Shown here piece by piece: positions 1,848 through 46,643 of a stretch of DNA of 64,000 bases. The stretch spans positions 7,452,501 to 7,516,500 of the forward strand of contig CM075770.1 of the NCBI GenBank assembly GCA_037974665.1, written 5' to 3'. Position numbers and translations under genes: made by a program. The stretch is from Ehretia macrophylla. Its lineage: Eukaryota > Streptophyta > Magnoliopsida > Boraginales > Ehretiaceae. How positions within the stretch are numbered: the first letter of the stretch is position 1; the number at the start of each line of letters is the position of its first letter. The notes beneath the pieces are model-generated. The model did not search any database. It was not told the DNA's origin and was given only the letters and a program-made list of their open reading frames with translations.

Positions 1848-1870
1848 GAGTATACCAATAATGTATACTC
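1848..1870 (-). other. LTR hairpin, E1 copy 1
   Basis: Perfect 8-bp stem GAGTATAC/GTATACTC with a 7-base loop. On the element strand it follows CCCTCACT and precedes CACTCCTCA, then TTTCAGG. The stem pairing is matched in E2, E3 and E4 with different bases. Confidence 0.8.
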
Positions 1871-2022
1871 AGTGAGGGAGGGGGAAACGGGGACAGTATA
1901 CCGGGTTCGTGCAATGCTGCAATTTAACACAATTAACACAATAAATAAACAATGAATAACAATTCTAATACCATACTTTAAAAGGATACGATCGATAACC
2001 CTTATCACTCCAACTTTTGAAC

Positions 2023-2049
2023 CACGATCACGATCACGATCACGATCAC
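2023..2049. repeat. Hexanucleotide microsatellite in E1 LTR copy 1
   Basis: About four and a half units of CACGAT. The same array with the same unit number is at 6131-6157 and 10239-10265 in the other two LTRs, so it predates the array's expansion. Confidence 0.9.
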
Positions 2050-4423
2050 AATCAATGTGCCGGCATAATCCCCAAACACTCCAGTGGGTGTACTCCGGAT
2101 GTACCCCGAATATCCTACGACCCAACACCCCCTGGCAATCTCCGGACCAGGCGAGTGAGGGAATAGGGTACAGAGCTAGAGCACCAACCCTGGCAAGCCC
2201 GCTGCCGCCCAGAGAGGCCCATCGCATCCGTCCCGACTATATGGTTGCGCAACCAAAGACTCGATAACACAAGAAACAATAATAATAATAACAATATAAC
2301 AAAATAAGCCGATATACACACAAGAAGGACAACAAAAGAGGTTGTCCTCACACATTAACTAGTTGACCACAATAGAAGCGAAATAACAAGCATTAACCAT
2401 TAACTCATTCTATTAACTATAAAATTGACAAATCTTGTTAGAATAAACTAAATCACATTAATAGCATGAAAACTATTTAACATATTCGATATACAATAGA
2501 GAAATGCAAATAAGATGCAACTCCCTCACCTTGCAAGCCAATCCTGTAAGAATTTAGTTAAGAACCCTTTCCATATTCTCCGAATGCACCAAATCCTTCC
2601 ATTCTACTACATAATACAATCAACTAACTATATAAGAAATTATACATTCATTCTCGGGTATTCCACTTAGCATGCATGGGGTTCTAAATCACATAGACTA
2701 ACTAGACATTTAACATGCTAGAATTACCAAGTTAATACATGTAGAACACTTAAAACACTTAACTAGAATATTTTCAAACTTCTACCATAAAATACTTCAT
2801 TCAAGCATAAACTCAAACACTTAGTTTTCAATATATACATTATTAACTAATCCTTGATCTAACATGAAAATAACCATAAAAACCTTCTAAACTATCAAAA
2901 GAGTGCTCTTACTCACTTATGAACTCTAAAATACAAGATAGATATGGAATACAACACATAGCAAGTAGATCTTCATGAAAACATGCCCATTTACAAAACT
3001 TCTAACAGAACCTTAAATTTATCAAATTCATTACCTATGTTCTTGGACTCCAAATTCTCTGGTTTTTACATATAAATGTAGATCTTCGAGTGTAGTTGAT
3101 TTTAGAATCAAACAGAGCTTAATTCCAGTTTAAAATCAACAAGTTATGACCTTTCCCGTGCAACTACACAAACTGTCCAGTAGCAGCGATTTTCAGGACA
3201 CATTTTGAAAATGGCTAAATCGGAGGCCTAAAACGTTAGAATTAGCCTTAGCTCTAGAAATCAACATTTGTTCTAAACTGCCTAATCTAGCTGCTATGTA
3301 AATTTCGTTAATTTTCGAGTACGTTTGCTATGTCAAAATAGCTTCGAAAGACAGGGGCAGTGCACTATTTCGAAATTCAGATTTTGCATACTTGAATTCT
3401 CTTGATGTTTTCTTGCATTTGAGCTATCTATGGGCATTAATCTAGCATGTAACACATCCCTATACTTCACTTAGAACATTAAACAAACACATTGTCTACA
3501 TTTATATTCATATCTAGCAAAGTATCAACTACAACTAAAATCAACTATACACAAGCTATAAAACAAGAAATGTGTTCTCTAGCATCTAAATAACAAGTAT
3601 TAAGCATAGATTTAACAATATCTAACATAAATAATGACTTTTGAAAAATGGGTTAGAAAATGTCCTCACCTTTTTTCTGCAAAATAAATGAAAAATAAAC
3701 CGCTAGAAAGATGCTACACGTCACCACGAACTCAAAAATGCTGGAATTGCGCCTTGGTTCCACTCCAAACTCAAGATATAAGCAAAAATGTGCAAGGGGT
3801 TACTATTCATGGTCTTAGCTTGGTCACGGGTGGAAGGGAAGGAGAAAAGCTGATTTTGAGATTTGTTTTGGATTATTTAGTATTTAAGAGGAAAGTAAAA
3901 GGACAAAGCTTCGGTCAACTCTCGCGTGGAAAAATCAGCTCTGCGCCACCTTACGAAAACAGCCATAACTTCTTCTAGAAAACTCCAATTCACGAACGAT
4001 TTGAACCTATAGAAACTAGACTCGTAGAGCTTTCCAACCATATATAATTTGCTACCTAACTCTTCTCCAATTGGTTCAGATTTAATTCCAAAGTTGACCC
4101 AAAATTTGACTAACTTAACATTGTATTTTTATTTTTAATCCCAAGTTTACCCTTCATTAAACATTTCAAAAAAATGTCCACCTTGTCCTAGTTGGTCAAT
4201 GAAGGTGAAAAGTAGATAAGATGCAATTTAAATGAACTTTAAATGCAATTTTAAATTTTAAAACACTAAATAAGTCATGTAAATGCACATATTATTTTTC
4301 AAATAATTATTAAAATAAATGAATGCACATGTAATGAACGTTCGGGTCCTCGCAGCTAGCATTTAAGATAACATGTAATTAAATGCAATACTATTAAATA
4401 CATGCCGAGTTCGGGGTATCACA

Positions 4424-4436
4424 TCCTTCCCCCCTT
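4424..4436 (-). other. Polypurine tract, E1 interior copy 1
   Basis: On the element strand this is AAGGGGGGAAGGA directly before the LTR start TGTGATACC, the usual position for the plus-strand DNA primer. Confidence 0.85.
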
Positions 4437-5508
4437 AAAACAATTGCGTCCTCGCAATTCTTCTTCTGATAGAACTCGACATCAACTGAAGTCCAACTCT
4501 GGTTACTCTTCATCGATTGCTACAGTAAGAACACTAAATAAGAATGCCTATAGGAAGACCCAAGAAGAAATCCCAATAGTACTGCTTAAGAGCGCCTAAG
4601 TAATAAGGCCAAATAAAGGCTCGAATGAGAATGTCAAAGAAAATACTGTGCATCTAATAAGATAGTCAAGTAGAATACCAAATGTAGAATCCCGACCGGG
4701 CGAGAACTAAATGAGAATCTCAAGCGGATGCACCATATATAAAACCAACCTTCGAGGCCCCATCACTGTTTGCTGAGTAAGAATTTTGTACAACAAGAAG
4801 CACCAATAAGGAAATATCAGAAGAATGCCCAATAAGAAAATACCAAGGGAATGCTTCAGAGAACAGCCATGCAGAAACCCCAGAGAATCCATTCATCTTG
4901 GACTGCTGAGTATAGAAGAATGTCTTAGAGGAAATCCCAATAACCAAGCTCCAACTATAAACACCAACTCCCAAATAAAGGGATGATCAAATGCTTCTCA
5001 TTCCAGCTAATTCACATAACTTGAAGAGCCTACTACTAATCACTTCTCTTCAGGGGAAAGAATAAATCTTTCTTACTATTTCAACGGGACATGTATGAAT
5101 GCCAAGATATCACATTTACACATATATGCTTTAAACTATTATGCAAGCATGTTTATAAAAGAGTTTATAAAACAGTTTATTCATCAAAGTCATTCAAGTA
5201 CGACAATCATAACACAACTTAATCCAAGACATTCAAATACACATATTACAAGTAACAATTCAAGTAATTAACAATTCACGAGGTAGATTCGATTCACAAG
5301 GTCAATTCAATGCACAACTAGCCACTCCACTTAACTTAGCACACATTTAGCATATAACACATAACTATATCACATAGGTGCACACATTCTAGTCAAGGCA
5401 CACAATCTCACATACAGGCACACACTTTCGAGACACACTTAACGAGCATACAATCAAGGTTTACTACCCAACAGACCGAGGATCCTATCCCGGCTGAGAG
5501 CTAACTAA

Positions 5509-5520
5509 GCTCTGATACCA
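5509..5520 (-). other. Primer-binding site, E1 copy 1
   Basis: Element strand TGGTATCAGAGC, complementary to the 3' end of plant initiator-Met tRNA, two bases from the LTR. This site fixes the element's orientation as minus. Confidence 0.9.
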
Positions 5521-5522
5521 CT

Positions 5523-8500
5523 TGTAACGCCCCATTCCCTCACGAAAATAGGAGCTATATATTCCCACTAAACACAACCCGATCCAAAACCCAAGTCACG
5601 AAATACGAGGAGAAACGGACAGAGTTTTCCCTGTTTATAGGACAAACAGTTTACCTGCACACAACAAATAAATGGACCAGTACCGTGTCCAAACATACAT
5701 AACTCCATACATGCATTGAACTCAAACCACATTAAGCTATTACATAGACTAGGTTATCAAAGAACTCTATGACCTGGTTAAGCTTAAATACATTTATCTC
5801 CTACATTGAGCATATACAATTCATGAAAGTAAAACTTTACAACTTTTACAGCTCAAACCACATAACACGTAAGGCCACTCTTCAAGCACGAACTATCACG
5901 TGATCACGAACTACACTTCCTTTGGCTATAACCTGAAAGATTTATGATGAGGAGTGAGTATACCAATAATGTATACTCAGTGAGGGAGGGGGAAACGGGG
6001 ACAGTATACCGGGTTCGTGCAATGCTGCAATTTAACACAATTAACACAATAAATAAACAATGAATAACAATTCTAATACCATACTTTAAAAGGATACGAT
6101 CGATAACCCTTATCACTCCAACTTTTGAACCACGATCACGATCACGATCACGATCACAATCAATGTGCCGGCATAATCCCCAAACACTCCAGTGGGTGTA
6201 CTCCGGATGTACCCCGAATATCCTACGACCCAACACCCCCTGGCAATCTCCGGACCAGGCGAGTGAGGGAATAGGGTACAGAGCTAGAGCACCAACCCTG
6301 GCAAGCCCGCTGCCGCCCAGAGAGGCCCATCGCATCCGTCCCGACTATATGGTTGCGCAACCAAAGACTCGATAACACAAGAAACAATAATAATAATAAC
6401 AATTTAAAAAAATAAGCCGATATACACACAAGAAGGACAACAAAAGAGGTTGTCCTCACACATTAACTAGTTGACCACAATAGAAGCGAAATAACAAGCA
6501 TTAACCATTAACTCATTCTATTAACTATAAAACTGACAAATCTTGTTAGAATACGCTAAATCACATTAATAGCATGAAAACTATTTAACATATTCGATAT
6601 ACAATAAAGAAATGCAAATAAAATGCAACTCCCTCACCTTGCAAGCCAATCCTGTAAGAATTTAGTTAAGAACCCTTTTCATATTCTCCGAATGCACCAA
6701 ATCCTTCCATTCTACTACATAATACAATCAACTAACTATATAAGAAATTATACATTCATTCTCGGGTATTCCACTTAGCATGCATGGGGTTCTAAATCAC
6801 ATAGACTAACTAGACATTTAACATGCTAGAATTACCAAGTTAATACATGTAGAACACTTAAAACACTTAACTAGAATATTTTCAAACTTCTACCATAAAA
6901 TACTTCATTCAAGCATAAACTCAAACACTTAGTTTTCAATATATACATTATTAACTAATCCTTGATCTAACATGAAAATAACCATAAAAACCTTCTAAAC
7001 TATCAAAAGAGTGCTCTTACTCACTTATGAACTCTAAAATACAAGATAGATATGGAATACAACACATAGCAAGTAGATCTTCATGAAAACATGCCCATTT
7101 ACAAAACTTCTAACAGAACCTTAAATTTATCAAATTCATTACCTATGTTCTTGGACTCCAAATTCTCTGGTTTTTACATATAAATGTAGATCTTCGAGTG
7201 TAGTTGATTTTAGAATCAAACAGAGCTTAATTCCAGTTTAAAATCAACAAGTTATGACCTTTCCCGTGCAACTACACAAACTGTCCAGTAGCAGCGATTT
7301 TCAGGACACATTTTGAAAATGGCTAAATCGGAGGCCTAAAACGTTAGAATTAGCCTTAGCTCTATAAATCAACATTTGTTCTAAACTGCCTAATCTAGCT
7401 GCTATGTAAATTTCGTTAATTTTCGAGTACGTTTGCTATGTCAAAATAGCTTCGAAAGACAGGGGCAGTGCACTATTTCGAAATTCAGATTTTGCATACT
7501 TGAATTCTCTTGATGTTTTCTTGCATTTGAGCTATCTATGGGCATTAATCTAGCATGTAACACATCCCTATACTTCACTTAGAACATTAAACAAACACAT
7601 TGTCTACATTTATATTCATATCTAGCAAAGTATCAACTACAACTAAAATCAACTATACACAAGCTATAAAACAAGAAATGTGTTCTCTAGCATCTAAATA
7701 ACAAGTATTAAGCATAGATTTAACAATATCTAACATAAATAATGACTTTTGAAAAATGGGTTAGAAAATGTCCTCACCTTTTTTCTGCAAAATAAATGAA
7801 AAATAAACCGCTAGAAAGATGCTACACGTCACCACGAACTCAAAAATGCTGGAATTGCGCCTTGGTTCCACTCCAAACTCAAGATATAAGCAAAAATGTG
7901 CAAGGGTTTACTATTCATGGTCTTAGCTTGGTCACGGGTGGAAGGGAAGGAGAAAAGCTGATTTTGTGTTTTGTTTTGGCTTATTTAGTATTTAAGTGGA
8001 AAGTCAAAGGTCAATGCTTCGGTCAACTCTCGCGTAGAAAAATCAGTTCTGCGCCACCTTACGAAAACAGCCATAACTTCTTTTAGAAAACTCCAATTCA
8101 CGAACGGTTTGAACCTATAGAAACTAGACTCGTAGAGCTTTCCAACCATATATAATTTGCTACCTAACTCTTCTTCAATTGGTTCAGATTTAATTCCAAA
8201 GTTGACCCAAAATTTGACTAACTTAACATTGCATTTTTATTTTTAATCCCAAGTTTACCCTTCATTAAACATTTCAAAAAAATTCCCACCTTGTCCTAGT
8301 TGGTCAATGAAGGTGAAAAGTAGATAAGATGCAATTTAAATGAACTTTAAATGCAATTTTAAATTTTAAAACACTAAATAAGTCATGTAAATGCACATAT
8401 TATTTTTCAAATAATTATTAAAATAAATGAATGCACATGTAATGAACGTTCGGGTCCTCGCAGCTAGCATTTAAGATAACACGTAATTAAATGCAATACT

Positions 8501-8531
8501 ATTAAATACATGCCGAGTTCGGGGTATCACA
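5523..8531 (-). repeat. E1 LTR, copy 2 (central LTR shared by two units)
   Basis: 3,009 bp. It serves both interiors, as expected after recombination between LTRs. It differs from copies 1 and 3 at scattered single positions only. Confidence 0.92.
5956..5978 (-). other. LTR hairpin, E1 copy 2
   Basis: Same perfect 8-bp stem and 7-base loop as at 1848-1870, exactly 4,108 bp further on. Confidence 0.8.
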
Positions 8532-9630
8532 TCCTTCCCCCCTTAAAACAATTGCGTCCTCGCAATTCTTCTTCTGATAGAACTCGACATCAACTGAAGT
8601 CCAACTCTGGTTACTCTTCATCGATTGCTACAGTAAGAACACTAAATAAGAATGCCTATAGGAAGACCCAAGAAGAAATCCCAATAGTACTGCTTAAGAG
8701 CGCCTAAGTAATAAGGCCAAATAAAGGCTCGAATGAGAATGTCAAAGAAAATACTGTGCATCTAATAAGATAGTCAAGTAGAATACCAAATGTAGAATCC
8801 CGACCGGGCGAGAACTAAATGAGAATCTCAAGCGGATGCACCATATATAAAACCAACCTTCGAGGCCCCATCACTGTTTGCTGAGTAAGAATTTTGTACA
8901 ACAAGAAGCACCAATAAGGAAATATCAGAAGAATGCCCAATAAGAAAATACCAAGGGAATGCTTCAGAGAACAGCCATGCAGAAACCCCAGAGAATCCAT
9001 TCATCTTGGACTGCTGAGTATAGAAGAATGTCTTAGAGGAAATCCCAATAACCAAGCTCCAACTATAAACACCAACTCCCAAATAAAGGGATGATCAAAT
9101 GCTTTTCATTCCAGCTAATTCACATAACTTGAAGAGCCTACTACTAATCACTTCTCTTCAGGGGAAAGAATAAATCTTTCTTACTATTTCAACGGGACAT
9201 GTATGAATGCCAAGATATCACATTTACACATATATGCTTTAAACTATTATGCAAGCATGTTTATAAAAGAGTTTATAAAACAATTTATTCATCAAAGTCA
9301 TTCAAGCACGACAATCATAACACAACTTAATCCAAGACATTCAAATACACATATTACAAGTAACAATTCAAGTAAATAACAATTCACGAGGTAGATTCGA
9401 TTCACAAGGTCAATTCAATGCACAACTAGCCACTCCACTTAACTTAGCACACATTTAGCATATAACACATAACTATATCACATAGGTGCACACATTCTAG
9501 TCAAGGCACACAATCTCACATACAGGCACACACTTTCGAGACACACTTAACGAGCATACAATCAAGGTTTACTACCCAACAGACCGAGGATCCTATCCCG
9601 GCTGAGAGCTAACTAAGCTCTGATACCACT
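8532..9630 (-). mobile_element. E1 interior, copy 2, non-coding
   Basis: 1,099 bp, almost identical to copy 1. Purine tract at 8532-8544 and initiator-Met primer site at 9617-9628 on the element strand. No coding domain is recognisable. Confidence 0.85.
9617..9628 (-). other. Primer-binding site, E1 copy 2
   Basis: TGGTATCAGAGC on the element strand, two bases from the third LTR. This is the outer 5' side of the array in element orientation. Confidence 0.9.
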
Positions 9631-12600
9631 TGTAACGCCCCATTCCCTCACGAAAATAGGAGCTATATATTCCCACTAAACACAACCCGATCCAAAACCC
9701 AAGTCACGAAATACGAGGAAAAACGGACAGAGTTTTCCCTGTTTATAGGACAAACAGTTTACCTGCACACAACAAATAAATGGACCAGTACCGTGTCCAA
9801 ACATACATAACTCCATACATGCATTGAACTCAAACCACATTAAGCTATTACATAGACTAGGTTATCAAAGAACTCTATGACCTGGTTAAGCTTAAATACA
9901 TTTATCTCCTACATTGAGCATATACAATTCATGAAAGTAAAACTTTACAACTTTTACAGCTCAAACCACATAACACGTAAGGCCACTCTTCAAGCACGAA
10001 CTATCACGTGATCACGAACTACACTTCCTTTGGCTATAACCTGAAAGATTTATGATGAGGAGTGAGTATACCAATAATGTATACTCAGTGAGGGAGGGGG
10101 AAACGGGGACAGTATACCGGGTTCGTGCAATGCTGCAATTTAACACAATTAACACAATAAATAAACAATGAATAACAATTCTAATACCATACTTTAAAAG
10201 GATACGATCGATAACCCTTATCACTCCAACTTTTGAACCACGATCACGATCACGATCACGATCACAATCAATGTGCCGGCATAATCCCCAAACACTCCAG
10301 TGGGTGTACTCCGGATGTACCCCGAATATCCTACGACCCAACACCCCCTGGCAATCTCCGGACCAGGCGAGTGAGGGAATAGGGTACAGAGCTAGAGCAC
10401 CAACCCTGGCAAGCCCGCTGCCGCCCAGAGAGGCCCATCGCATCCGTCCCGACTATATGGTTGCGCAACCAAAGACTCGATAACACAAGAAACAATAATA
10501 ATAATAACACTATAAAAAAATAAGACGATATACACACAAGAAGGACAACAAAAGAGGTTGTCCTCACACATTAACTAGTTGACCACAATAGAAGCGAAAT
10601 AACAAGCATTAACCATTAACTCATTCTATTAACTATAAAACTGACAAATCTTGTTAGAATACGCTAAATCACATTAATAGCATGAAAACTATTTAACATA
10701 TTCGATATACAATAGAGAAATGCAAATAAGATGCAACTCCCTCACCTTGCAAGCCAATCCTGTAAGAATTTAGTTAAGAACCCTTTCCATATTCTCCGAA
10801 TGCACCAAATCCTTCCATTCTACTACATAATACAATCAACTAACTATATAAGAAATTATACATTCATTCTCGGGTATTCCACTTAGCATGCATGGGGTTC
10901 TAAATCACATAGACTAACTAGACATTTAACATGCTAGAATTACCAAGTTAATACATGTAGAACACTTAAAACACTTAACTAGAATATTTTCAAACTTCTA
11001 CCATAAAATACTTCATTCAAGCATAAACTCAAACACTTAGTTTTCAATATATACATTATTAACTAATCCTTGATCTAACATGAAAATAACCATAAAAACC
11101 TTCTAAACTATCAAAAGAGTGCTCTTACTCACTTATGAACTCTAAAATACAAGATAGATATGGAATACAACACATAGCAAGTAGATCTTCATGAAAACAT
11201 GCCCATTTACAAAACTTCTAACAGAACCTTAAATTTATCAAATTCATTACCTATGTTCTTGGACTCCAAATTCTCTGGTTTTTTACATATAAATGTAGAT
11301 CTTCGAGTGTAGTTGATTTTAGAATCAAACAGAGCTTAATTCCAGTTTAAAATCAACAAGTTATGACCTTTCCCGTGCAACTACACAAACTGTCCAGTAG
11401 CAGCGATTTTCAGGACACATTTTGAAAATGGCTAAATCGGAGGCCTAAAATGTTAGAATTAGCCTTAGCTCTATAAATCAACATTTGTTCTAAACTGCCT
11501 AATCTAGCTGCTATGTAAATTTCGTTAATTTTTGAGTACGTTTGCTATGTCAAAATAGCTTCGAAAGACAGGGGCAGTGCACTATTTCGAAATTCAGATT
11601 TTGCATACTTGAATTCTCTTGATGTTTTCTTGCATTTGAGCTATCTATGGGCATTAATCTAGCATGTAACACATCCCTATACTTCACTTAGAACATTAAA
11701 CAAACACATTGTCTACATTTATATTCATATCTAGCAAAGTATCAACTACAACTAAAATCAACTATACACAAGCTATAAAACAAGAAATGTGTTCTCTAGC
11801 ATCTAAATAACAAGTATTAAGCATAGATTTAACAATATCTAACATAAATAATGACTTTTGAAAAATGGGTTAGAAAATGTCCTCACCCTTTTTCTGCAAA
11901 ATAAATGAAAAATAACCCGCTAGGAAGCTGCTACACGTCACCAGGAGCTCAAAAATGCTGGAATTGCGCCTTGGTTCCCCTCCAAACTCAAGATATAAGC
12001 AAAAATGTGCAAGGGCTTACTATTCATCGTCTTAGCTTGGTCACGGGTGGAAGGGAAGGAGAAAAGCTGATTTTGTGTTTTGTTTTGGCTTATTTAGTAT
12101 TTAAGTGGAAAGTCAAAGGTCAAAGCTTCGGTCAACTCTCGCGTGGAAAAATCAGCTCTGCGCCACCTTACGAAAACAGCCATAACTTCTTCTAGAAAAC
12201 TCCAATTCACGAACGGTTTGAACCTATAGAAACTAGACTCGTAGAGCTTTCCAACCATATATAATTTGCTGCCTAACTCTTCCCCAATTGATTCAGATTT
12301 AATTCCAAAGTTGACCCAAAATTTGACTAACTTAACATTGTATTTTTATTTTTAATCCCAAGTTTACCCTTCATTAAACATTTCAAAAAAATTTCCACCT
12401 TGTCCTAGTTGGTCAATGAAGGTGAAAAGTAGATAAGATGCAATTTAAATGAACTTTAAATGCAATTTTAAATTTTAAAACACTAAATAAGTCATGTAAA
12501 TGCACATATTAATTTTCAAATAATTATTAAAATAAATGAATGCACATGTAATGAACGTTCGGGTCCTCGCAGCTAGCATTTAAGATAACATGTAATTAAA

Positions 12601-12640
12601 TGCAATACTATTAAATACATCCCGAGTTCGGGGTTTCACA
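9631..12640 (-). repeat. E1 LTR, copy 3 (outer 5' LTR in element orientation)
   Basis: 3,010 bp. It starts TGTGAAACC on the element strand, next to target duplication ACCCC at 12641-12645, which matches 1410-1414. Confidence 0.92.
10064..10086 (-). other. LTR hairpin, E1 copy 3
   Basis: Same 8-bp stem and 7-base loop as in copies 1 and 2. Confidence 0.8.
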
Positions 12641-12645
12641 ACCCC

Positions 12646-14084: not shown

Positions 14085-15940
14085 CTTCATGTGACGCCGG
14101 AGATTTTTCCTATACATTCACTTACTATTGCATCCATTAGTTGCGCATTTCCTCTGTGCTTTATTTACTATCTTCTTTAAGTTATTATTCATTTGTTTTC
14201 AACTGCCTAATATTAATGAATTAGCATTTTTATTAAATCATATTAATTATAATATGAGTGAGAAAAATGTGCGATTGAGCTAGGATTGATGGGAGCCTTC
14301 GTTTGAAAATTGTTTTAGTGATTTAATGAATAGTGTTACGTAACTAACTTAGAGTTTTAATTAGTTAGCACTCATATGTGGCCTTAGGCTCGTTTTAAAG
14401 GTAGCTACATTCATTTATAAGACCACTTAAGCACCCAATTTGACCCCACCTAACATATGCTCAATATATAAAAAAACTTAGCTTATAACATAACAAAGAA
14501 AAATAAAATAAAAGCTGAAAAAACAGCTGTGGAACCCGACAGCAGCAAACAAGAAGAAGAAAGGAGTTTTGTTTCACCAGTCACCAATCCAAGCCTAGAT
14601 CAAGTAGTTAGGGTGTGTGCAAGCCTTTTAGGTGCTCCTACGCGCTTTAGGTGAGGGATTTCATGACTATTTTCACATATTAAATATGTTGCATTTTTCT
14701 TGATTTGTTAGAAATGCTATCAAATGTTAATGCAAAGATTATTTATGCTATTATACATTGAATATAGGTGCTAGAGAACACATTAAGCCATTACTTCGCA
14801 TTTTAAACGGTTGGAATCGCTATTTTAATTTTATGAGGTGAATAGTGATGAATTTTTAGGATTTTGTGTAATTGTGCGCATTGGATTGATTCATTGCTTC
14901 TAATAGATGCCTTAGGTGCTAATGATAGTAGTCTAATAGCCCCGTGCCCTCGAATCACTCTAAACTTGCATAAAACGTGAAATAGCTGACTTTTTAAAAG
15001 GGGTTTCGAAGTTAATGTTAATCCAGGTGGATTTGAGCTTCACATTTGGTATTCTTAGGCTACTTACGTGCTATAAAAGCTTTGCTAACCCCTATTTGAA
15101 GCCCGAATAAGGTATGTGTAGTTCAAAGCTATAAGAAGAAAATTAGGGCTTTTGGGGTAATTACGGGTAATTGAACGTGTTTGAGGGTTGTAAGGGTGCC
15201 TTAAGGGTTAAGTAGAAGATTGGTATAGCTTCCCCTTGAATTTGAAACATTAACTATGATTTGGAAGGAAAATGGCTTAAGTTAAAAAGGGGATTAATGG
15301 AGAAATGGATGATTTCTCACTTCTACAACCTTGTAAGTGTTTATTAAGTGTTTAATTACAATTATAAGATGTTTATGAGCTTTTGGTATTGGTTTATTGG
15401 TAAATGTGCAATGTCTCCCTTTATGATCATTTAATTAGTTTGTATTATTACTTGTATTGTGAACTGTCTTGGGGGCAACCTCTTTTGTTGACCCTCCTAA
15501 GTGTTGTTGTTCTTATTTGGTTATCTTATTGTCAAGTGTTAATGTGCATTACATAGTGGTTGGGCAACCATAATGTCAGGGACAGATGTGTTGAATATCG
15601 GCTGGGCGGCAGAGGGCTTGCCAGTAGATATTCAAACTCCGTGCCCTAGTCCCTCATTCGCCTGGTCTGGAGATTGCCAGGGGATGTTGGGTCATAGGAT
15701 TATCGGGGTACATCCGGAGTACACCCACTGGAGTGATTGGGATTATGTCGGCACAGTGATCGTGGTTCGTGGATCGTGAATGAAGATCAAGTGAAGATTG
15801 GAATGTTGGGGTTAAGTGAAATGTATCCTTTTTAATGTGTGGTACTTGATCTGTTGTCATTCTTGAATGGTTTTAATTGTTATTAATGCTTAACTGTATT
15901 ACTTGTTGCATTGCACGCCCCAGGAGACTTTATCCCTCAC

Positions 15941-15960
15941 TGGGCAACAATGGTTGCTCA
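15941..15960 (+). other. LTR hairpin, E2 5' LTR
   Basis: Stem TGGGCAAC/GTTGCTCA (8 pairs including one G-T) around a 4-base loop. It follows CCCTCAC and precedes a TATCAGG, the same setting as the E1 hairpin but with different stem bases. Confidence 0.78.
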
Positions 15961-16401
15961 TACCTCGATATCATGTATCAGGAAGTGCTGAGGGTGATCC
16001 CCAGCTAGTTGAGGTGGTAGTGGAACAGGAAGAGGTACCGGCAGAGCCTTTGCCCTAATAGCTATGTGATTGTTGTCTGAGGTGGATGTGTTTTTTTGTT
16101 GCTATATGGCGCACTTGTTATTCTATATTGTAATCTATTTTGTGGCCTAAGAGCTATGTATATGCTTTGTAGTTGCAAGTTGGAGAATAGTTGGTTGTAG
16201 TGAAAGATTTGGGAAACTGTAGCTTGTAATAACTTATGCTCTACTTTTAGCTACTTGCATGCTTGGGTGTGTATGTTATGATGTATGGTTGGTTACAACT
16301 TCTAGGAATGTTCCAACGTTATCATAAAATGACATGTTAAGTGGTTTTACGAAGAAGTCAAATTGGTTGCATGCTTGTGTGAATTTGAATTACTGTATGC
16401 C

Positions 16402-23498: not shown

Positions 23499-23518
23499 TG
23501 GGCAACAGTGGTTGCTCA
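23499..23518 (+). other. LTR hairpin, E2 3' LTR
   Basis: Same 8-pair stem as at 15941-15960. The only change is in the 4-base loop. Confidence 0.78.
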
Positions 23519-23964
23519 TACATCAATATCATGTTTCAGGAAGTATTGAGGGTGATCCCCAGCTAGTTGAGGTGGTAGTGGTAGTGGAAGAGGAAGAGGT
23601 GCAGGCAGAGCCTTTACCCTAGTAATTGTGTGATTGTTGTCTGAGGTGGATGTGTTTTCTTGTTGCTATGTGGCGCACTTGTTATTCTATATTGTAATCT
23701 ATTTTGTGGCCTTAGGCAATGTATACGCTTTGTAGTTGCAAGTTGAAGAATAGTTGTTTGTAGTGAAAGATTTGGGAAATTGTAGCTTGTAATAACTTAT
23801 GTTCTACCTTTAGCTACTTGCATGCTTGGGTGTGTATGTTATGATGTATGGTTGGTTACAACTTCTAGGAATGTTCCAACGTTATCATAGAATGACATGT
23901 TAAGCGGTTTTACGAAGAAGTCAAGTTGGTTGCATGCTTGTGTGAATTTGAATTACTGCATGCC

Positions 23965-29622: not shown

Positions 29623-29637
29623 TTCTCTCCCCCTTAA
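29623..29637 (-). other. Polypurine tract of E3
   Basis: Element strand AAGGGGGAGAGAA directly before the 3' LTR, overlapping the pol tail SLRGRE. Confidence 0.88.
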
Positions 29638-29639
29638 AG

Positions 29640-32600: not shown

Positions 32601-32814
32601 CCTTACATACTAAGCCAGTAATATACTTATAGCGCAAAGAGGTACTAGTCTCAACCACATAAGGCAGTCTTTCAGGTTGTACATTAACACGTTGCACACA
32701 AACAGGAGTAATGAAAGAATACGTAGCACTAGAATCAATCAACACTTTAACAAGTTGATCAAGTATAAGGAAGTTACCTTCCACAACTGCAGTCTCCTCA
32801 GGCATCTCTTCCAA
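29640..32814 (-). pseudogene. E3 pol region: protease, RT, RNase H, integrase, chromodomain-like tail (fossil)
   Basis: On the minus strand, from right to left: protease-like VLIDSSATYSFI near 32750; reverse transcriptase about 32190-31600, with [11 protein letters not shown] and the catalytic [12 protein letters not shown] block; RNase H start about 31320-31230; integrase zinc region about 30890-30780 (CLTCQRVKAEH); integrase core with WVVVDRLTKIAHF near 30650; tail [12 protein letters not shown] near 29730. The protein is close to that of E2. The region is broken. Confidence 0.92.
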
Positions 32815-32889
32815 GTCAACTGCATAGGCCCAAGCCTAAACCCGCTGCTGCTGAGGTGCACTGCCCGCAGGTCAACCCTGATAACCCTA

Positions 32890-34085
32890 AGTCGCTGCCC
32901 GACCCTCAGTCCTCTGATATCTAGGGCAATCCCTCGCCCTATGCTGATTGCTACCACAACCCAAACAAGCCCCTGACTTCACCCTGCAATCGGCCTCCAC
33001 ATGGCCCTAGCACTTGCAGTAAGTACACTGCGGTGATGATGCATTGACACTGCCCCTGGAAGAACCAGAAGCTGAAGAAGCAGTTGTACCGTCCTGCTGC
33101 TGAGGTCTAACAAAACTAGGCCTGTATTGACCCTGAGACTCGGCTGGCCTATACTGGGACTGAACTTGATAGGACCTCTGCTGAAATTGCGGTCGATAAT
33201 AACTCTGCTGACCTTGCAGTTTGTAAGAACCCTGCTGAGCCGGCGGCCTGTACATACCCTGCTGTACGGGAGGCTATACACTCCCTGCTGACCCTGAGGC
33301 TGAAATGGCCTCTTGCTAGGCTGGCTAGATACAATCTGTTCCCCCTTTCTCTTCCCCAGTCTAGAAGCTGCATCAAAGGCCTCCGTAAGTATATCATACC
33401 GATTCAGGGCCATCGCATCCTGAATCTCGAGCCTCAACCCCAACATGAATCTATGAGTCTTACGTTCCTCGTCAGCCACATACTCTAGTGCATACCGGGA
33501 CAACCTAGTGAAAGTGGTCTCATACTGTGCCACTAAAGCATCTCCCTGCACTAAGGCTAGAAACTTTACCTCTCTCCGCTCCCTCGCGATCCTCGGGACA
33601 TACTTTGCCCGGAAAGCTAACAGAAAGGTACCCTAAACATACGGAATACCCTGAGTCGCCCAGCTAGTTCTCACCTTGCGCCACCATGCTTCTGCCTCAT
33701 CATCCAGCATGTACACGACAAAGGTGACCTTCTGCTCATCGGTATAATCCATAGGGTCAAAGATCTTCTCCACCTTACTAATCCACGCCTCAGCCTTCCG
33801 ATCATCCGGCTCCCCCTGAAACCGCGGTGGATAATACCCTAAAAACTCTTTCAGTGTACCACGCTCGTGGTACCCACCTTGTACGTTCAGTAACTGATTC
33901 TGCAATGCCTGAGTTTGGGTAGCCTACCCTGCCAGTAACTGTGCCTGCCCGGCCATGATCTCGGTTAACCTATCAAAAGTTGCTCCGAAGTGATCATCAT
34001 CCCTAACTTGGCCTAGTGCCACATTTCTTGGAACCTCATCAATCACCTCAGGCCTACCTCTGGTCCTTGGTCTACCAGTTATTCT
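32890..34085 (-). pseudogene. E3 gag region (fossil)
   Basis: Starts with a basic RGRPE stretch near 34080, continues with capsid-like YYPPRFQGEPDDRKAEAW near 33835 and VDADEERKTHRFM-type residues near 33460. A Pro/Gln-rich linker precedes a CCHC knuckle near 32960. Broken. Confidence 0.82.
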
Positions 34086-34358
34086 ACTAATCAAAGAGTT
34101 AGCACAGGTTATAGCACATTAACAAACTATGAACAACTATTAACACATAAACAACAAACTCATATAAAGCACATAAATCACTTAAGTATCAATCACATAA
34201 ACAAATTAGTCACATAATCACATAAGCACTAAATCACATAATCACTTAATCACTTAACCATATTAACACATAGTTCACTTTTCTTTAACTTCATACATAC
34301 TTTCATGCTAAGACCATTACCCACATTCCGAGAATACCCCAATTGGCAGCTAACATAT

Positions 34359-34370
34359 GCTCTGATACCA
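34359..34370 (-). other. Primer-binding site of E3
   Basis: TGGTATCAGAGC on the element strand, six bases from the 5' LTR, complementary to initiator-Met tRNA. Confidence 0.9.
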
Positions 34371-34376
34371 CTTAAA

Positions 34377-36838
34377 TGTCACGCCCCAACTCGACCCCAC
34401 CTACAATCAGTCAGGACGCAACGGAATTTCGGCAGTATAACAACAGTAATTAAGATACCGAGGCTCTAAACCAACCTCTCAGAACATCATACAATCAACT
34501 CCTCAACCAAACAACAATCAATTCCTCAATACCATTAACAACATACAACATAACCATATTATACAATAATCATTTTTAGACAATCCATTCATAATTATAC
34601 GCCTCCGTTCCAACATAATACCTTAACTTTAACATACGTATCAAAATAGACTATAAACCAATTTAGTATTCTAAACAAGGTCAAAAGAAGACTACTAAAC
34701 CATTATACATAAGACTTTCTACTAAGGTAGGTTTTACAATACATAATATTACAATAACTATAAACAATCTCATGGCAAAGACTCTTGCACATAAGACTCA
34801 TCCACGTAAGGCCCATTTTCCTATTCTGAAGGCACGTACCCAAAATCTTGCGAAAGGACACCTATATGCATGCAATAATAGAGAGTGAGCTTATATAAAA
34901 CAAGCTCAGCGAGGATCCGATAGATCTCTAACAGTATTCACTATACTCATTGGAAATGATCCTTTAATCAAGTAAACACACAAATAAACATCAATACAAT
35001 ATAAACACATAACTATAATGACCAATCAATAAAGTATACTCAATTTGGTGTAGCTCCAAACGCCATCACGATCTCAACCATTCTTCTTGTAACTCCCCAC
35101 TACTCACGCACCCGAGGTACCTCACTAGCCCCTCCATCCATGACACCTCCGTCATGCGAGCTGGGGGTAGTCTTAGGTAGTCATGTCGTTATCAACCCGA
35201 CAGCCCGATGCTGCCCGAGAGGTAGCACACACATACCAAGACTCAACAATAATAATAAACATCATTCACAGGAAGACAATCTAGCATAATTTCCTATCTC
35301 CCAGTTCATCAATAATCAATCAATAATCATCAATAATCATCAATAATCATCCATTTCCATCAATGTAACATCAATAATCATCAATATGACATCAATATAA
35401 CATCAATATTTATTTAAACAACAAACAACTAAGTTAGATGACAAAGTAGGCCATCCAACTTAACATGCATGAAACACGTAATCTAACCCTAGTCTAACCG
35501 TTAACAACTCACAATTCAATCACTCAAATACTACCCAATCAACTAAAGGCTCAATTCAACAATTTAAAGAAAGACAACCTAAACTTCAAATAATCATATC
35601 TTACATTCTACTAGTCCAAACAATTCCAAATCAGTTTCAAACACTCACCCATTCAATCAACTATATTAACCCTCTTGAAAACCAACCAAGACACATCAAA
35701 ATCAAGCTCAACAACCCTAAAACCTCAATGCACCTAGGCTGAAATTTCTGGATTTTCACCCAAACATCGCAATCAAAAACTCGGCATTATAACGGTGTTA
35801 CCACGTAATTAACAAACTTTTAGAAATCGACGTCAATTGATTCCAACCTCAACAATTCAAGATAATCATCAAAAGGCCAATCTATCAACTTTTAATACCC
35901 GAAAATAAATAATTTTTCTACAATGGTTCAAATCTCGTAGTAATACACATAAACGATCCCTACCATGCGCTGAGCAATAATATAACTTCAAATTAACATT
36001 CTAACGGTTCAAAATGCAATTATGAGCAAATATATAAAATATGAATTTTAAGATCTAGAATTTTTCTCTCACCTTTGATGTGATATAAGCCTAGATATGC
36101 GTGCAATGCGTGCCCAACAAGTAGAATCCAACTCGGCATGAAGTTCTACGGATAAAAACTAGGTTTTTCTATAAAAAATTGCTTTGAAAACTTGAAGAAA
36201 AGCTTTGTTTTTCTTTCCTCTATGGCTCTCGGCCATATGTGTGAAATTTGAGTGTGTTTTGTGTTGTGTTTTGTGTGTGTTGATGCATATAAGCTAAAAT
36301 CAAACTTATTAAAAATGGTCAATGTTAGTTTATTAGTCCTTTAATTGTTTTTCTAGTCTTTTAATTCATTTCTTGAGTAGTTCTTCCTCAACTATTAATT
36401 TAACACTTAAACTAATTCTAGTCAATATATTTTAGTTGACAAAGAATGTTACGTTAAAATAGTTTCACCCGAATCGGCTGAAAACTCGTTTTCTTGCAAA
36501 AGAAAGTGTAAAAATCTTAAAAATTCCAAAACTGATTCCAAATCCGTTTTAATCAAACACGGGTCTATTAATACTCGAGGACTAGGTTTTAAGACGTTTA
36601 AAACACCCCTGTAAAAATTTTAGCAGACAGGTATTCAAAAATACTATTCACCAAAACGGGCAATAAAATTTCTAATTTCGTTTTTTATGAAAATTTCATG
36701 AATGCACACTTAGCATGTATTAAGAGTATTAATCACATATTTATCACATTCTAAGCCATATAACACATAAACAGGTTAATTCACGCAATACGAGGTTAAG
36801 CATGCAAATCTAGATAAAGCAAAATATGGGGTCTCACA
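34377..36838 (-). repeat. E3 5' LTR
   Basis: 2,462 bp matching the left LTR. AAAGGTGAG lies at 36068-36076 on the element strand, about 762 bases into the LTR, and the hairpin at 34887-34907. Confidence 0.92.
34887..34907 (-). other. LTR hairpin, E3 5' LTR
   Basis: Six perfect pairs GAGCTT/AAGCTC with a 9-base loop, preceded by CCTCGCT and followed by CACTCTCT. Confidence 0.72.
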
Positions 36839-40632: not shown

Positions 40633-40675
40633 CATTCTTCTCCCTATCGGTCGAGCATCTTCAAACCTCTATCTC
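40633..40675 (+). repeat. Short dispersed repeat, copy 3
   Basis: Nearly identical to 37108-37150 and starts exactly where the LINE scrap ends. Confidence 0.8.
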
Positions 40676-41455: not shown

Positions 41456-41588
41456 ATGAAAGCAGAATTTGTTCAGATCCTCTCACATGTTCAATCTTTT
41501 TTTAGCGATTTCCCCAGAGATCTTTGTCATTACTGCAACCTTCATTTTTCTCATTCATGGAGTTGTATTTAGTACCTCTAAGAAAGAA
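41456..41588 (+). pseudogene. nad2: nad2 exon 1, copy A (NADH dehydrogenase subunit 2), truncated
   Basis: Reads MKAEFVQILSH then, in the next frame from ATG 41487-41489, MFNLFLAISPEIFVI and TATFIFLIHGVVFSTSKK. This is the start of plant mitochondrial NAD2, a proton-pumping membrane subunit of complex I. One base is missing between the two parts, so the longer leader is out of frame with the core start at 41487. The match ends at KK; the family continues DDYPPLVSNVG, and here unrelated sequence follows, so the exon is cut short. The real gene is split by trans-spliced group II introns; no intron boundary is visible here. Copy B is at 59544. Confidence 0.85.
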
Positions 41589-44046
41589 GAATGGTGATAG
41601 GGAAGGCCAAAAAAGATGATGAAAAAAGGGTAAGGAGAAGGAAAATGGTGAGAAGAAACCCTCCTAAAAAGAGAGGTTGGGTTTTGAATTCCTTGATGAA
41701 ATCGTGAAAGATCTCTTCGAGGAGTTGATGAAGGAAAACCGTATAGGACTACCACAATGGAAGAGGTCAGGTCCAATGAAGAAAGAAAGACCGAGAATCC
41801 GAACTCTTGTGCCTAAGAGGTCCGTCCCATTGAAAACTATTGTGGCTTGAAGGAAGGTATCTAAAGCCTCTTTGAGAATGGGGACATCGGACTGCCCCCT
41901 ATCGAGAAAACCACTGCCACCCCAATCACCTTAGTAAGTAGCGAGTCCCTGCATTCAACCTCTGAAAAGTGGCCTTCCATTAATAGTCTTTCTTTCAAAC
42001 TATTCTGTGGGAAGACTTAAAGTTGTTGGCATTTCCCTATACAAAGACAGTTTTCGCAATAGCTAGATTCTCAAGTTCTGATACATTTGCACCCTTCTTC
42101 TTGAAATAGCATTAGCTGCCCCTTCTATGGCATGGCATCCTCTTAGACTCTTTCTATTCCATCAAAGATCCAAATAGGGGATTCCGTAATTCTCCGACAT
42201 CTTACTGAGTTTCCCCCTCATGCTTTTGTAAAAAGCCAATCCACGGTGGGAAGAGGAAGAAGCTAAGAGTCACCAATATGAATGATCGCCTACTGCACCT
42301 TTCTACAGGCGGGCAAGTTTTCTCTGCCCTGAAGTTCAAGCAACTGGTCATTGATGTTGACAATGTGTGGGAAGGATCCCTTGAGCTTAGTAGCTCTTTT
42401 GTATTCATTCCCATTCCCAGGCGAGCTCCCATAAGTTATCTTCAATTGGAATCAAAGACTCCTATGCTTAAAGACTTAACTTAAAGAGGAGTGAGTGGTG
42501 CCCCTCCATTAGTAATGGAAGTTTCTTTATCTTCGGTTTTCTATTAAGTACCAGTGTCTTGTAGCAGTCCCTATCTCAATTTAAGCCCCTGCCCCTGGAG
42601 TCTAAATGCTAGTTCGTAGGGCTCATCAGTACCAGTTTAAAAGCCAGTTTCAGTAGTGTTATTCTTAGCAGTCTATCTTTATCTGGAAGTCCCGTTATTT
42701 TACACAAAAGAAAAGGAGAGCCTTCTTAATTGATTTCTCTATTTAGGATAAGAGTATGCAAGAGCTAAGTCAAAGGTTAGGCTAACGCTAAGTATCCGCC
42801 CAGAGAGTTAGCATATTTCGTTGGTCCTACGCTCCTCTCCCACTTCACTACTCCGTACCCCAATCCCTTTCTATCCTAATGGTATTGCCCGAGTCCGTTG
42901 GAGTCTTTTTCTCTTCCTTTCCAACCAACTACTACCTAGTTCTATTAAACCAAACACTTTCATTTTACATTAGGCGTGTAGGACGTCTGCCACCTTTGAG
43001 TACTTCTGCCGAGTCATTGTTTCAAGGCCAGAGTCGGGTAACTATATATCGTACTTATTTACTTTACCGGGCCTTTTCTCATTCCATTCAATAGAATAGA
43101 AAGCCAAATGCATTGACTGCGAGGGAAAGGAAAAACTACCCAGTTCTCTTACAAGGCGTGCTATCACCATAGGTGGAGTACTTTAACCTCCCGGTTGGCT
43201 TTATCAATTCCTTGTTTATTTTATAGAAAGGGACGGCTGGAGCTGGTGTGAAAAAAGAAGGAGACCCTTAGGTTAGTCACTTAGTTCAGGATCAGGATCG
43301 CCACCTTCTGATCTTTTGTTGAAAGAGGTTTCATCAACCCAAACTGCTGACCCAACCTTCTTGTCTTAGGCTTCTTTCCACGAATGGAGCAAAGGTTGCT
43401 TGAGAGTGAAAGCCGGATTGATAAAGATCGACCAGTCTCAACTATGTTTCTAGGTACGGAGTAAGTCAACCAAAGGGCGAGGATTAAGAAAGAAGTTCTC
43501 AATGCTGAAATCAAACTCTGCTAGCCATTCAAGGGAAGTAGGAAGAAGAGCGTTCTATTACCCTATTTGTCTAATAATTATTATTAAATTACCCCTATTC
43601 AAGAATTCGTATTCGTAGCCTCTGATTTTATTCCTGACTAGCGGACAAAAAGAAAGCCTTAATTCATCATGCTCTACGATTAACTGAGGCATACTTGATA
43701 ACCTAGTTTTTTTAGGGCTTGGGTACGAGAACATAATTGGATTTCAAAACACTAGTCAAAAGCAACTCACCAGAAGTTTTTCCTCATTTACCTTTAGGGC
43801 ATCTCTAAAAGGCAGCATCTGTCTCATTCTTCTTCCCCCTCGGTCTCGGTAGACTAGGGACGCTTACTGCTCCGACTAAGGAAAGGAAGAGCCTACGAAT
43901 AGCTAGGGAGGGCAACTGAGCAATGTAGCTACAATCCGACTAGTGAGGGCCTTCTCTTTGCTTTTCTTCACCTCCTGGGGTTCTTAGGGGGAAAAAGTGG
44001 CTTTTACGAGTACATTAGATAGACCTTATTGTTATGTGTCAGGAGT
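41589..44046. other. Mitochondrial-type DNA between nad2 exon 1 copy A and E4
   Basis: About 2.4 kb with no recognised gene. Open frames up to about 77 codons lie on both strands without known families. Confidence 0.4.
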
Positions 44047-44051
44047 GCAGT

Positions 44052-46643
44052 TGTGATAATCCGAACCCAGCATGCATTTAATGGCATTTAATTGCATTTA
44101 ACTAAGTGTTATCTTAAATGTTAGCATTGAATTTTGTGTTTATTTTTAGTTAAACATCCATTTCTAGCATTATTTCATATTTCTTTTAGAAGTAATTAAA
44201 TAATACTTGAGTTAATTATTTTAACGGAATAATAACTACTTTCATATTTCTGTTAATCGGTTTCATTTTTCTTGTACCATAATGCTCGGATTTCAATTAA
44301 ATGAAAAGTAGCTCCGAGCCAAAGTAAATTTTCAACCATGATTACTCTTCAAAAATTATATTTTCTTGAATTCTTTGAGATTTAATTGTTATTCTTTTAT
44401 TGTCGCAAAGTGTATTGCATTTCGAGAGCAATAGTTAGAGAGTGATTTCTAGTCCTCAGCAAATAGTGAAAACTAGTATTTAGTGTTTTAATTTTAGTGT
44501 TTTAATTGTTGTTAGCTAGAATTAATATTACATTAGTTATTTTAGCTTTAAAATGCATAAAACAAGCTTATTTGACCAATTTTTATGTGGGTTGACCAAG
44601 CCTTGACCATTTGACCATTGTCAACTTTTTATTTAAGCATGAAATAAGAGAACAAAGAAGCAAAATCAGAAAAAAAAAGGGAGCCATGGCCGAAACCATG
44701 AAGAAAAGAAAAAAAAACATTTCAACATTCAAATCTTCGATTCTTCGCGTGAGCTTGCACGGGGTGGTTTCCGAGGCATCCTACGAGGTTTTCCTAGCGT
44801 CTAGGAGCGTCTAAGGTGAGGGCTTCATGTTTATTTGCTCTTTTGAATATTTTGTGTATTAACTTTGATTTTTGTGTTTTATCCGTATAATGTTATTTTA
44901 ATCATTTTGTGGCTTAAAGAATGTTCCCTATCAATAGTAGAACATGTATTTATAGCTTTGTAACATTTTTTGCGGTTGAATATCGAAATTGAAATATAAA
45001 TTGTTTAATGAAGAGTAAATTATGAATAGTAAAACCCTGTTTCGATGAAGTTGCTCCGTTACGCGTTTTGTTGATGTAAGAAGGTGCTAGATATGCTATA
45101 ATGCCTAAATGTATGGTTTAATTAGATTGTGTAATGGAAAAAACAGAAAAAAGGCTTAGTGAAAGTTGAGGTCGTTTCGGTCAAGTTTGGAATTTTCTCG
45201 ATTTGCGTGAAGGCTTGTCGAGGTACGTCATGGAAGCACTTTTGGTGCAGTTGTGACATTGGTTGGGTAATTGGTTGAAGTAGTTGTAGTTCAAACGAGC
45301 AAAGAGGGAAATCGGGGCTTTGCGTGAATTCTAGGGTCAAGTAGGGTTTTGGGGTCTTTAGACATGCCTTATAGTGACCTAGGAGGATTAGTGAAGTCAG
45401 TTTCCAAAACTCGTGGCTCGTTTGAAAGTAGTAGTGTTTTGAAAGTTGGGGTCATTTTTGTGATTTTGTGTGTTTTCATAGTATATTGCCTATAGAATGC
45501 TTATAATGCCTATAGAATACTTATTATTGCTTGATAATGTTTGTTGGTGTTGTTCTTGTTACTTGTTTGATTGTAAATGCTTGTTATCTTGTTTATTATC
45601 TCTAATCTGTATTGTTGTGCTATCGCTCGTTTATCGCCTTGTATCGTGTCTTGCATTGCATAGTGTCAGGCGCGTGAGTGATGGGCCTCTCTGGGTAGCC
45701 TCGGGTTGCCAGTGTTGGTTGCTCTAGCTCCGTGTCCTATTCCCTTTTCTCGATTGGGTTGCCTCCCAGGGAGATTTGCGTCGTAGAATTGATGGTTACT
45801 CCTGAGGTATTCCAAACTGAAGTTATAAGGTGGTTGCACGCTTCTTGTCATCATTGTCAACATCAAGCTCGAGATTGATGTATCGCTCGTGAAATGGTAC
45901 ATTGCTCGTATGAGTGAACCATAGCCTTCAGAGTGTGGTATAGCTTTGAATGGTTGTGTTAATGCTTTCAGTAATTTCTTATTGTATTGATTGTTTGTCT
46001 TGATTGCTTACTTATCAGTTATATTGTTTAACTGTCTTATTTGCATTGCACGACTTTCTTTCTCTCCAATTCGATATCTGTCTCGCCCTCATTGAGTATA
46101 TGTGTTGTGTATACTCACTCCTCACCACCACATTTCAGGAAATGCCATGTTAGCAAGAAAGTTCGTGATTACGTGAAAGATCATGCTTGAAGAGTTGTCT
46201 TGCGTGCTATGTGGCTTGAGTTGTCAAAGATGCAAAGATGTATGTTTCATGTGTTGATTGTATTTAATGTTGAAAAGGAATGTAATTTAAGTTTTCTAGA
46301 TTATTGAAGTGATTTGGAAAAGCTAGTTTATGTATTAGTTGGTATGGCTTAACTTTAAACCATGTTTGTACTATTTAAAGAAAGAGTTATAATAGTCTAG
46401 TACTTGGAAATGTATGAATAATTGCTGTGTTTAATTGTTGAGAACCGAGACTCGGATGGCCTTGAGGTGGTTGAATGATTAGACATGGTATTGGTCCACT
46501 TATATGCTGTCACAGGTTTCTTTTGCCTAGATACAGGGGAGACTCCATCCATTTTCCTTAAAAATTATGCCCGGGTTTGGAATTGGGTTGTGATTAGATT
46601 GATTGTTAGAACTCCCGGTCTCGAGAGGGATCGGGGTGTTACA
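44052..46643 (+). mobile_element. E4: solo LTR of a Ty3/gypsy-like element
   Basis: 2,592 bp from TGTGATAAT to GTTACA with exact GCAGT target duplications at 44047-44051 and 46644-46648 and no interior. That is the product of recombination between the two LTRs of a full element. It is related to the E1 LTR in its ends and motifs. CTAAGGTGAG lies at 44811-44820, 759 bases in, close to the position in E3. A GC block at about 45660-45830 and a hairpin at 46094-46116 follow. Age cannot be read from a single LTR. Confidence 0.93.
46094..46116 (+). other. LTR hairpin, E4
   Basis: Seven perfect pairs GAGTATA/TATACTC with a 9-base loop, preceded by CCCTCATT and followed by CACTCCTCA, then TTTCAGG 22 bases on. 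Confidence 0.8.

Follow-up and report, generated by a model that had tools for sequence, protein, structure and literature searches.

In many plant genomes the Ty3/gypsy superfamily accounts for a large share of the DNA. In retroviruses, weak or structured 3′ splice sites preserve enough full-length RNA, and the acceptors lie mostly downstream of gag or pol. The LTR hairpin described here would act as those suboptimal acceptors do, in that full-length RNA is kept, but donor and acceptor both lie within the LTR and the motif recurs in many families. The Ogre elements of pea and Medicago have a partially spliced intron, whereas the intron predicted here is inside the LTR; the portions of the Ogre descriptions used here mention no masking hairpin. 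Splicing is inhibited when a branch site is masked in an aptamer stem, according to the part of that report consulted (PMC2275289); the likeness is that a branch site held in an RNA stem represses splicing, although that system is engineered and ligand-dependent, unlike the LTR hairpin. Benachenhou et al. (2013) likewise modelled LTRs in search of conserved structure, and in the sections used here great length variation is said to have prevented model building for the LTRs of plant Metaviridae (PMC3601003). In the open-access papers searched we found no published description of the LTR hairpin.

The window, that is, the whole stretch of 64,000 nucleotides that was analysed, holds elements E1 to E4 and a fifth, E3-like LTR. 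Pieces of E2 match RVP_2, RT_RNaseH and SH3_Tf2-1, and pieces of E3 match Retrotrans_gag, RVT_1, Integrase_H2C2 and SH3_Tf2-1, with rve below the cut-off; the order of domains between the LTRs is that of Ty3/gypsy elements in both, the full gypsy set being present in neither among the seven pieces scanned. The named matches, among 120 listed of 7,989, are mostly to plant reverse transcriptases. The PBS, which we take to be of the tRNA-Met type, adjoins the LTR end in E1, E3 and the fifth LTR, and has one mismatch in E2. The LTR end with the PBS TGGTATCAGAGC occurs at 10,527 and 9,870 places.

The initial annotation reported a hairpin at the same place in eight LTRs of E1–E4, and all eight are present where it put them. 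The sense strand of E1 and E3 is the minus strand. In E1 the hairpin reads TGAGTATAC-ATTATTG-GTATACTCA at 1847–1871 (−), with identical sequences at 5955–5979 (−) and 10063–10087 (−). The E2 hairpins are TGGGCAAC-AATG-GTTGCTCA in the 5′ LTR (15941–15960, +) and TGGGCAAC-AGTG-GTTGCTCA in the 3′ LTR (23499–23518, +). The 5′ LTR of E3 has TGAGCTTGT-TTTAT-ATAAGCTCA with one G-U (34886–34908, −), its 3′ LTR has the stem TGGGCTT/AAGCTCA, also with one G-U (27681–27703, −), and E4 has TGAGTATAT-GTGTTGT-GTATACTCA, again with one G-U (46093–46117, +). The stem first proposed for E2, TGGGCAAC/GTTGCTCA, stands with its one G-U, while those for E1, E3 and E4 were too short, each opening on the sense strand with a further T-A pair. 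CCTCAYT or CCTCGCT had been placed before every hairpin, which needs amending for the E3 copy at 27681–27703, where CCTTAT is found, not CCTCRY; the distance from hairpin to LTR end is about 430–620 bp, against the 430–640 bp given earlier.

These places were recovered by a stem scan and a covariance model, and all except the first and third E1 copies were also folded singly. On either strand of the window, the scan sought perfect stems of 7–10 bp with at most one G-U that end at a CTCAY-like site. It gave 15 matches, eight of them the LTR hairpins; YAGG starts 18–21 nt after all eight and after none of the other matches. The covariance model, with four of its 24 training rows from the window, recovered all eight hairpins at E-values of 3e-10 to 1.1e-6 and no further window match below E 1. 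At the level of gathering scores Rfam has no family at the hairpin, the window yielding three tRNA matches only. Against shuffles, single folds of six window copies range from z = −4.3 (E1) to −0.85 (E4, for which 36 out of 200 shuffled sequences give an equally good fold). Single folds are thus not all exceptional, and the evidence for the hairpin is its recurring position together with covariation.

Given 24 diverse sequences, RNAalifold proposed the same helix unprompted. In a permutation set of 36 strings, 34 of them long enough (27 hairpins chosen by us plus nine previously omitted strings, one near-duplicate of E3 and other decayed strings being excluded), 88 of 102 inner stem cells pair, and none of 20,000 shuffles has more than 75 paired. 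Pairing, both-sided cells and the covariation score come out above the shuffled and slid-pairing controls both in a MAFFT alignment, which was not fitted to the hairpin, and in a fitted one; two of the five covariation measures, both counts, do not rise above shuffles. Related LTRs can be compared directly: E1 and E2 have different stems and yet are 75% identical over 201 upstream columns, and loci L148 and L156, 79% identical across 293 columns once the hairpin is masked, have C-G and U-A respectively at pair 5. The suggestion that selection acts on an RNA fold is borne out in that both arms vary jointly across families, under shuffle and permutation controls that leave the kinship of copies and families in place. 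The accompanying phrase, that the hairpin is conserved by pairing and not by sequence, fits the inner stem, where pairs vary on both sides; the outer part hardly varies, and on its 3′ side it is mostly the sequence that is conserved. The U of pair 3 is invariant: of 56 distinct rows, 32 have A-U and 24 have G-U there. Hairpins with G at pair 5 (43 pattern matches, such counts including some doubles) look as if they had decayed from C or T families. Stems of only 5–6 bp occur in four of the 27 hairpins, and stems below 7 bp in 10 of 36 once the omitted strings are added; among 16 hairpins folded in 200-nt context, pairs 2–5 have a probability of about 0.2–0.5 in E4, L165, L167 and L171.

A protein that reads both halves of a DNA palindrome would also make inverted repeats covary, so the same pattern might mark the site of a dimeric regulator with no RNA structure at all. 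We think this very unlikely, as the inner half differs in sequence between families while complementarity is retained, and as G-U is tolerated at pair 3 to the extent just given.

The hairpin model finds its match at the expected place in 65 of 75 LTRs sampled by LTR end and PBS. This sample is not random: two sets of 30 loci come from the top of the listings, within 6 Mb of the start of contig C1, and 15 (L155–L169) were picked for unusual spacers. Sixteen of the 75 are also in model R1, the E-values of which are rough, and the remaining 59 give 49 in-place matches. The ten sampled LTRs with no significant in-place match include L134, where the stem is kept and the 20 nt after it are missing. 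No hairpin match was obtained in L124, L152, L155, L159, L160 and L163, which look like other lineages, nor in L103 and L122, which keep a donor-like site. Beyond this genome, the hairpin is carried by L004 and L005, contaminant elements in bacterial assemblies and the only ones matched among L001–L008. A contaminant from a separate source, L171, gives a weak match (model E 0.18) 321 nt before a PBS; it has TAAG/CTTA, an outer change on both sides that leaves the branch-site motif yUnAy readable. These two further sources look like other plants. IMG/VR was also tried as a source: two protein scans found no relative, and since none of the 54 loci returned by three PBS patterns encodes one by tblastn, those loci (L009–L062) were dropped. 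Copies in one genome, and the families themselves, are related, so the hairpin could be a relic carried along by ancestry within a real intron. That related LTRs have different stems at homologous places, and that the same design appears in two sources resembling other plants, makes this the least probable of the readings considered here, a shade below even the palindrome.

The hairpin had been thought to lie in the leader or near the RNA 3′ end. Neither describes it simply: the donors and a spliced-form copy place it in the last ~45–50 nt of a predicted intron inside the LTR. A donor, (A/T)AG^GTGAG (splice boundaries are marked ^), is found in E1–E4, 1.2–1.85 kb upstream, and in the fifth LTR, with a changed base in E1 copy 3; donor-like sites occur in L003, L103 and L122. 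Together with YAG acceptors, E1–E4 thus have the U2-type motifs AG^GTRAG and YAG. In E4 the predicted intron, CTAAG^GTGAGG...TTTCAG^GAAATG, spans 1323 nt (44816–46138, +) with the hairpin near its 3′ end, and a putative TATA-like box, TATTTAAG (44630–44637, +), starts 186 nt before the donor. By splice motifs and analogy with E4, introns are predicted in the three E1 copies at 1825–3669 (−, 1845 nt), 5933–7777 (−, 1845 nt) and 10041–11886 (−, 1846 nt, the base before the donor changed to give AGG^GTGAG), and in the 5′ and 3′ LTRs of E2 at 14651–15981 (+, 1331 nt) and 22208–23539 (+, 1332 nt). Splice motifs also predict those of the E3 5′ LTR (34862–36072, −, 1211 nt) and 3′ LTR (27657–28857, −, 1201 nt). 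The fifth LTR has the donor-like AAAG^GTGAGA (49996–50001, +) and no hairpin match, its hairpin region appearing to be deleted.

Exon junctions were predicted from the splice sites of E3 and E4 and then searched for in the genome. The E3 junction gave nothing in a search limited to exact matches. For E4 there is one genomic copy, at 11948459–11948548 of contig C2 (control, 0), contiguous across 91 nt at 92% identity, and the other 39 matches scored, of 40 scored among 917 candidates, break near the junction; the intact E4 donor boundary stands at 6,360 places. A chance deletion with exactly these ends is unlikely but possible, at a rough estimate of about 1% with 4 equivalent placements allowed. 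Because of the upstream donor, and of this one junction copy against 6,360 intact donor boundaries, the hairpin site very probably marks where an intron within the LTR ends on its 3′ side.

The branch-site motif yUnAy closes the 3′ arm in 62 of the 66 matched copies (arm placement in these copies used a small bonus for the motif), a YAG follows 20–27 nt past the arm in 59, and a G follows the AG (YAG^G) in 60. We propose that the hairpin is a splice-control element: by masking the branch site it would leave splicing partial, an interpretation that we consider the likeliest, though at about even odds. In these plant Ty3/gypsy elements the LTR would contain a whole spliceosomal intron with its acceptor some 400–600 bp before the LTR end. 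CUCAY, with which the 3′ arm closes 20–27 nt before YAG^G, would be the branch site; the 5′ arm would pair with it and hide it from U2 snRNA, and the intron would therefore be removed from part of the RNA only. Splicing would yield an mRNA with a short leader. RNA left unspliced would retain the whole R region, and reverse transcription could therefore rebuild an intron-containing LTR. The termini of the RNA and the task of each form are inferred. It is in keeping with masking that single-stranded branch sites accompany splicing in plants, in the portion of the study consulted (PMC7784297).

In the main rival the branch site would directly precede the hairpin, which would then aid splicing, its folding shortening the path to the AG from about 45–50 to about 20–25 nt. 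A second yUnAy stands immediately 5′ of the hairpin in 52 of the 66 copies, and yeast introns are reported to have stem-loops in the stretch from branch site to 3′ splice site (cited in the part of PMC7784297 used here). However, L101, L110, L141, L148 and L157, among others, have CTCGC at that site, without a branch A, whereas the motif in the 3′ arm is nearly always intact; we consider this rival unlikely, though the strongest of its kind. The hairpin may also lie within R, and might serve the unspliced genomic RNA (in dimerisation, packaging, strand transfer or 3′-end formation) with the nearby splice site a coincidence. Retroviral leaders commonly contain hairpins of these kinds. The loops here vary in length and sequence, and neither the YAG spacing nor an arm fixed in sequence as yUnAy would be expected on such an account, so we regard it as improbable. 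A role as RNA 3′-end or poly(A) signal was rejected, as it leaves the spacing to YAG unexplained.

Masking of the branch site leads to a fuller reading, which we offer tentatively and with rather less confidence: plant chromovirus-like elements would carry an intron in each LTR with a hairpin-locked branch site, and the lock, covarying across plant families, would be a switch between messenger and genome. Such a lock would act in cis, whereas retroviruses use export factors and weak splice sites for the same task. With a hairpin at a fixed place, of which a single genome offers natural variants by the thousand, the balance of mRNA and genome is testable. Plant gypsy LTRs would moreover gain a landmark open to modelling, which would help to find solo LTRs and to predict cryptic exons arising from such LTRs inside genes.

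As for the acceptors themselves, pyrimidine tracts before the AG are strong in L166 and L167. With rough weights, the post-hairpin acceptor is the top-scoring AG in none of the LTRs scanned. A second acceptor-like site, CAG^GT near the LTR end, scores above it in E1, E2 and E4, and may also be used as an acceptor.

All eight hairpins that the initial annotation placed in the LTRs of the retrotransposon families E1–E4 are present in the window, on an assembly of 1.58 Gb in 20 contigs. Ty3/gypsy-type elements are found there: E1 on the minus strand, with three LTRs at 4108-bp spacing; E2 (14092 to ~24139, plus); E3 (27189–36838, minus); the E4 LTR (ending at 46643, plus), which is not followed by a primer-binding site (PBS); and another LTR, the fifth, resembling that of E3 (49058 to ~50340). 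In the sense direction all have the same layout: a flank resembling CCTYRY, then TGAG or TGGG, the two arms of the inner stem around a loop, and CTCAY, followed by ~20 nt and YAG|G. Six of the window copies were folded, with a single representative of the three E1 copies, which are identical; each of them, and the sampled locus L004, formed the expected hairpin on its own. Folding energies of single hairpins are not all exceptional, so the case rests on position and covariation.

RNAalifold, given a MAFFT alignment of 24 sequences that was not fitted to structure, proposed exactly this six-pair helix. By statistics that ignore kinship (here and below, the rows are related and carry no tree correction), 97.2% of cells in this alignment were paired, vs 87.4% in shuffles, 15 cells had both-sided changes, vs 6.2, and the covariation score was 0.359, vs 0.198 in shuffles and at most 0.089 in slid versions; none of 500 shuffles reached any of these values. 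The pairs with both-sided change and the further pair types did not exceed the 500 shuffles, and the same was true of 56 distinct fitted rows, in which 96.4% pairing and a covariation score of 0.376 were each reached by none of 500 shuffles. At pairs 5–7, counted inwards, 88 of 102 cells in 34 hairpins were paired; 20,000 permutations averaged 56 and never exceeded 75. Covariation is most directly demonstrated by related LTRs with different stems, E1 vs E2 and the sampled loci L148 vs L156.

A genome search with CCTYACTGAG-x and CTCAC fixed, and the gap and the partner of x free, matched 5,293 times with C as x (control 1), 22,096 with T (control 7), 158 with A (control 10) and 43 with G (control 5), some places being counted double; on reading, 7 of ~100 listed x=C rows had no G opposite. 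Because choice by motif was to be avoided, 75 LTRs were also taken by their end plus PBS: the first 30 of 10,527 TGACA-type and the first 30 of 9,870 TTACA-type, all 60 lying at the beginning of a single contig, plus 15 chosen for their unusual spacers. A covariance model of the 24 sequences matched 66 of these (E 5.5e-4 or better), and in 65 cases the match is in sense orientation 250–750 bp before the PBS; excluding the 16 that were in the model, 49 of 59 match in place. All four outer pairs are formed in 58 of the 66 matched copies, some of which are decayed. One locus, L150, matched only downstream of its PBS, and eight gave no match to the model. Another, L134, matched weakly (E 0.17) with its stem kept; the 20 nt that separate hairpin from exon are missing in this copy, and a short repeat marks the ends of the gap.

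Conservation by pairing and not by sequence, as first claimed, describes the inner pairs, which covary, but not the outer part, where pair 1, the outermost, is U-A in all 56 rows and pair 3 is A-U or G-U, the U always on the 3′ side. The 3′ arm plus the next base reads yUnAy, the branch-site motif, in 62 of 66 copies; a YAG ends 20–27 nt after the hairpin in 59, and G directly follows the YAG in 60. On the 5′ side yUnAy is kept in 52 of the 66, with CTCGC instead in several families. This outer stem is the pattern that a branch site serving as one arm of the hairpin would show. In L171, from a further source, the outer stem is TAAG/CTTA, altered at the position that yUnAy leaves free (n); its hairpin lies 321 nt before the PBS and is followed by TTTTCAG|G, the model score alone being weak (E 0.18). 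Two nearly identical contigs from separate bacterial records, L004 and L005, have TGAGCAA/TTGCTCA 336–337 nt before their PBS. In eight bacterial genome records (L001–L008) there are contigs with coding sequence related to the query reverse transcriptase, and several of these look like plant contamination. In some families (loci L073, L110 and L165) GTRAGG immediately follows the YAG after the hairpin, so that acceptor and donor-like site adjoin in the manner of recursive splicing.

Upstream of the hairpin, (A/T)AG|GTGAG is observed in each full LTR of the window, with a changed base in E1 copy 3, and the predicted LTR introns would span 1201–1846 nt; the E4 donor lies 186 nt after TATTTAAG. 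Scored with approximate weights, and with the full E4 LTR left out, this donor was the best or tied best GT in the LTR copies E1b, E3a and E3b and in the fifth LTR; in E2 it ranked second. The acceptor after the hairpin was middling. By the same weights, a CAG|GT acceptor-like site ~90–135 bp before the LTR end outscores the post-hairpin acceptor in E1, E2 and E4. In one E1 LTR (5523–8534, minus) a second donor-like AAG|GTGAGG stands shortly after an acceptor-like TTACAG|G (LTR position ~1882–1898), which would make a tiny exon.

Exon junctions for E3 and E4 were predicted from donor and acceptor sites and sought in the genome. An exact-match search found no E3 junction; the E4 junction occurs once, with 1 mismatch (control 0). 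The 91-nt E4 query gave 917 candidates in a first look, of which 40 were scored: one aligned end to end at 92% (G000:C2:11948459-11948548), and the other 39 break near the junction. By contrast, the intact boundary between donor exon and intron occurs at 6,360 places (up to 3 mismatches). A chance deletion with these ends could have produced the E4 junction copy, a source that we roughly estimate to be very unlikely.

This single copy suggests that some splicing occurs; if intron-less copies are as scarce in general as in both searches, the RNA that was reverse-transcribed had almost always retained its intron. Masking of the branch site by the hairpin would reconcile intron retention in reverse-transcribed RNA with splicing. 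The structure, its position, the splice-site motifs and one junction copy are observed; in this scheme we infer the branch point, the repression of splicing, the transcript ends and the roles of both RNAs. Two papers report that splicing is accompanied by single-stranded branch sites in Arabidopsis nuclear RNA (PMC7784297) and is inhibited by an engineered RNA stem over the branch site (PMC2275289). Rfam gave no match to the hairpin at gathering score. No description of this hairpin or of an intron within plant gypsy LTRs was found in the literature searched, which was mostly open-access, so that absence is weak; neither appears in the accessible parts of PMC3601003, where plant Metaviridae LTRs are not modelled, PMC7730604, whose expressed set holds no Tekay element, PMC7784297, PMC6317226 or PMC2275289.

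The E1 LTRs stand in tandem (window 1415–12643), one every 4108 bp with ~1.1 kb between them, and six matches in a row with this spacing occur at G000:C2:24469040-24489602; such rows are LTR-plus-short-internal arrays.
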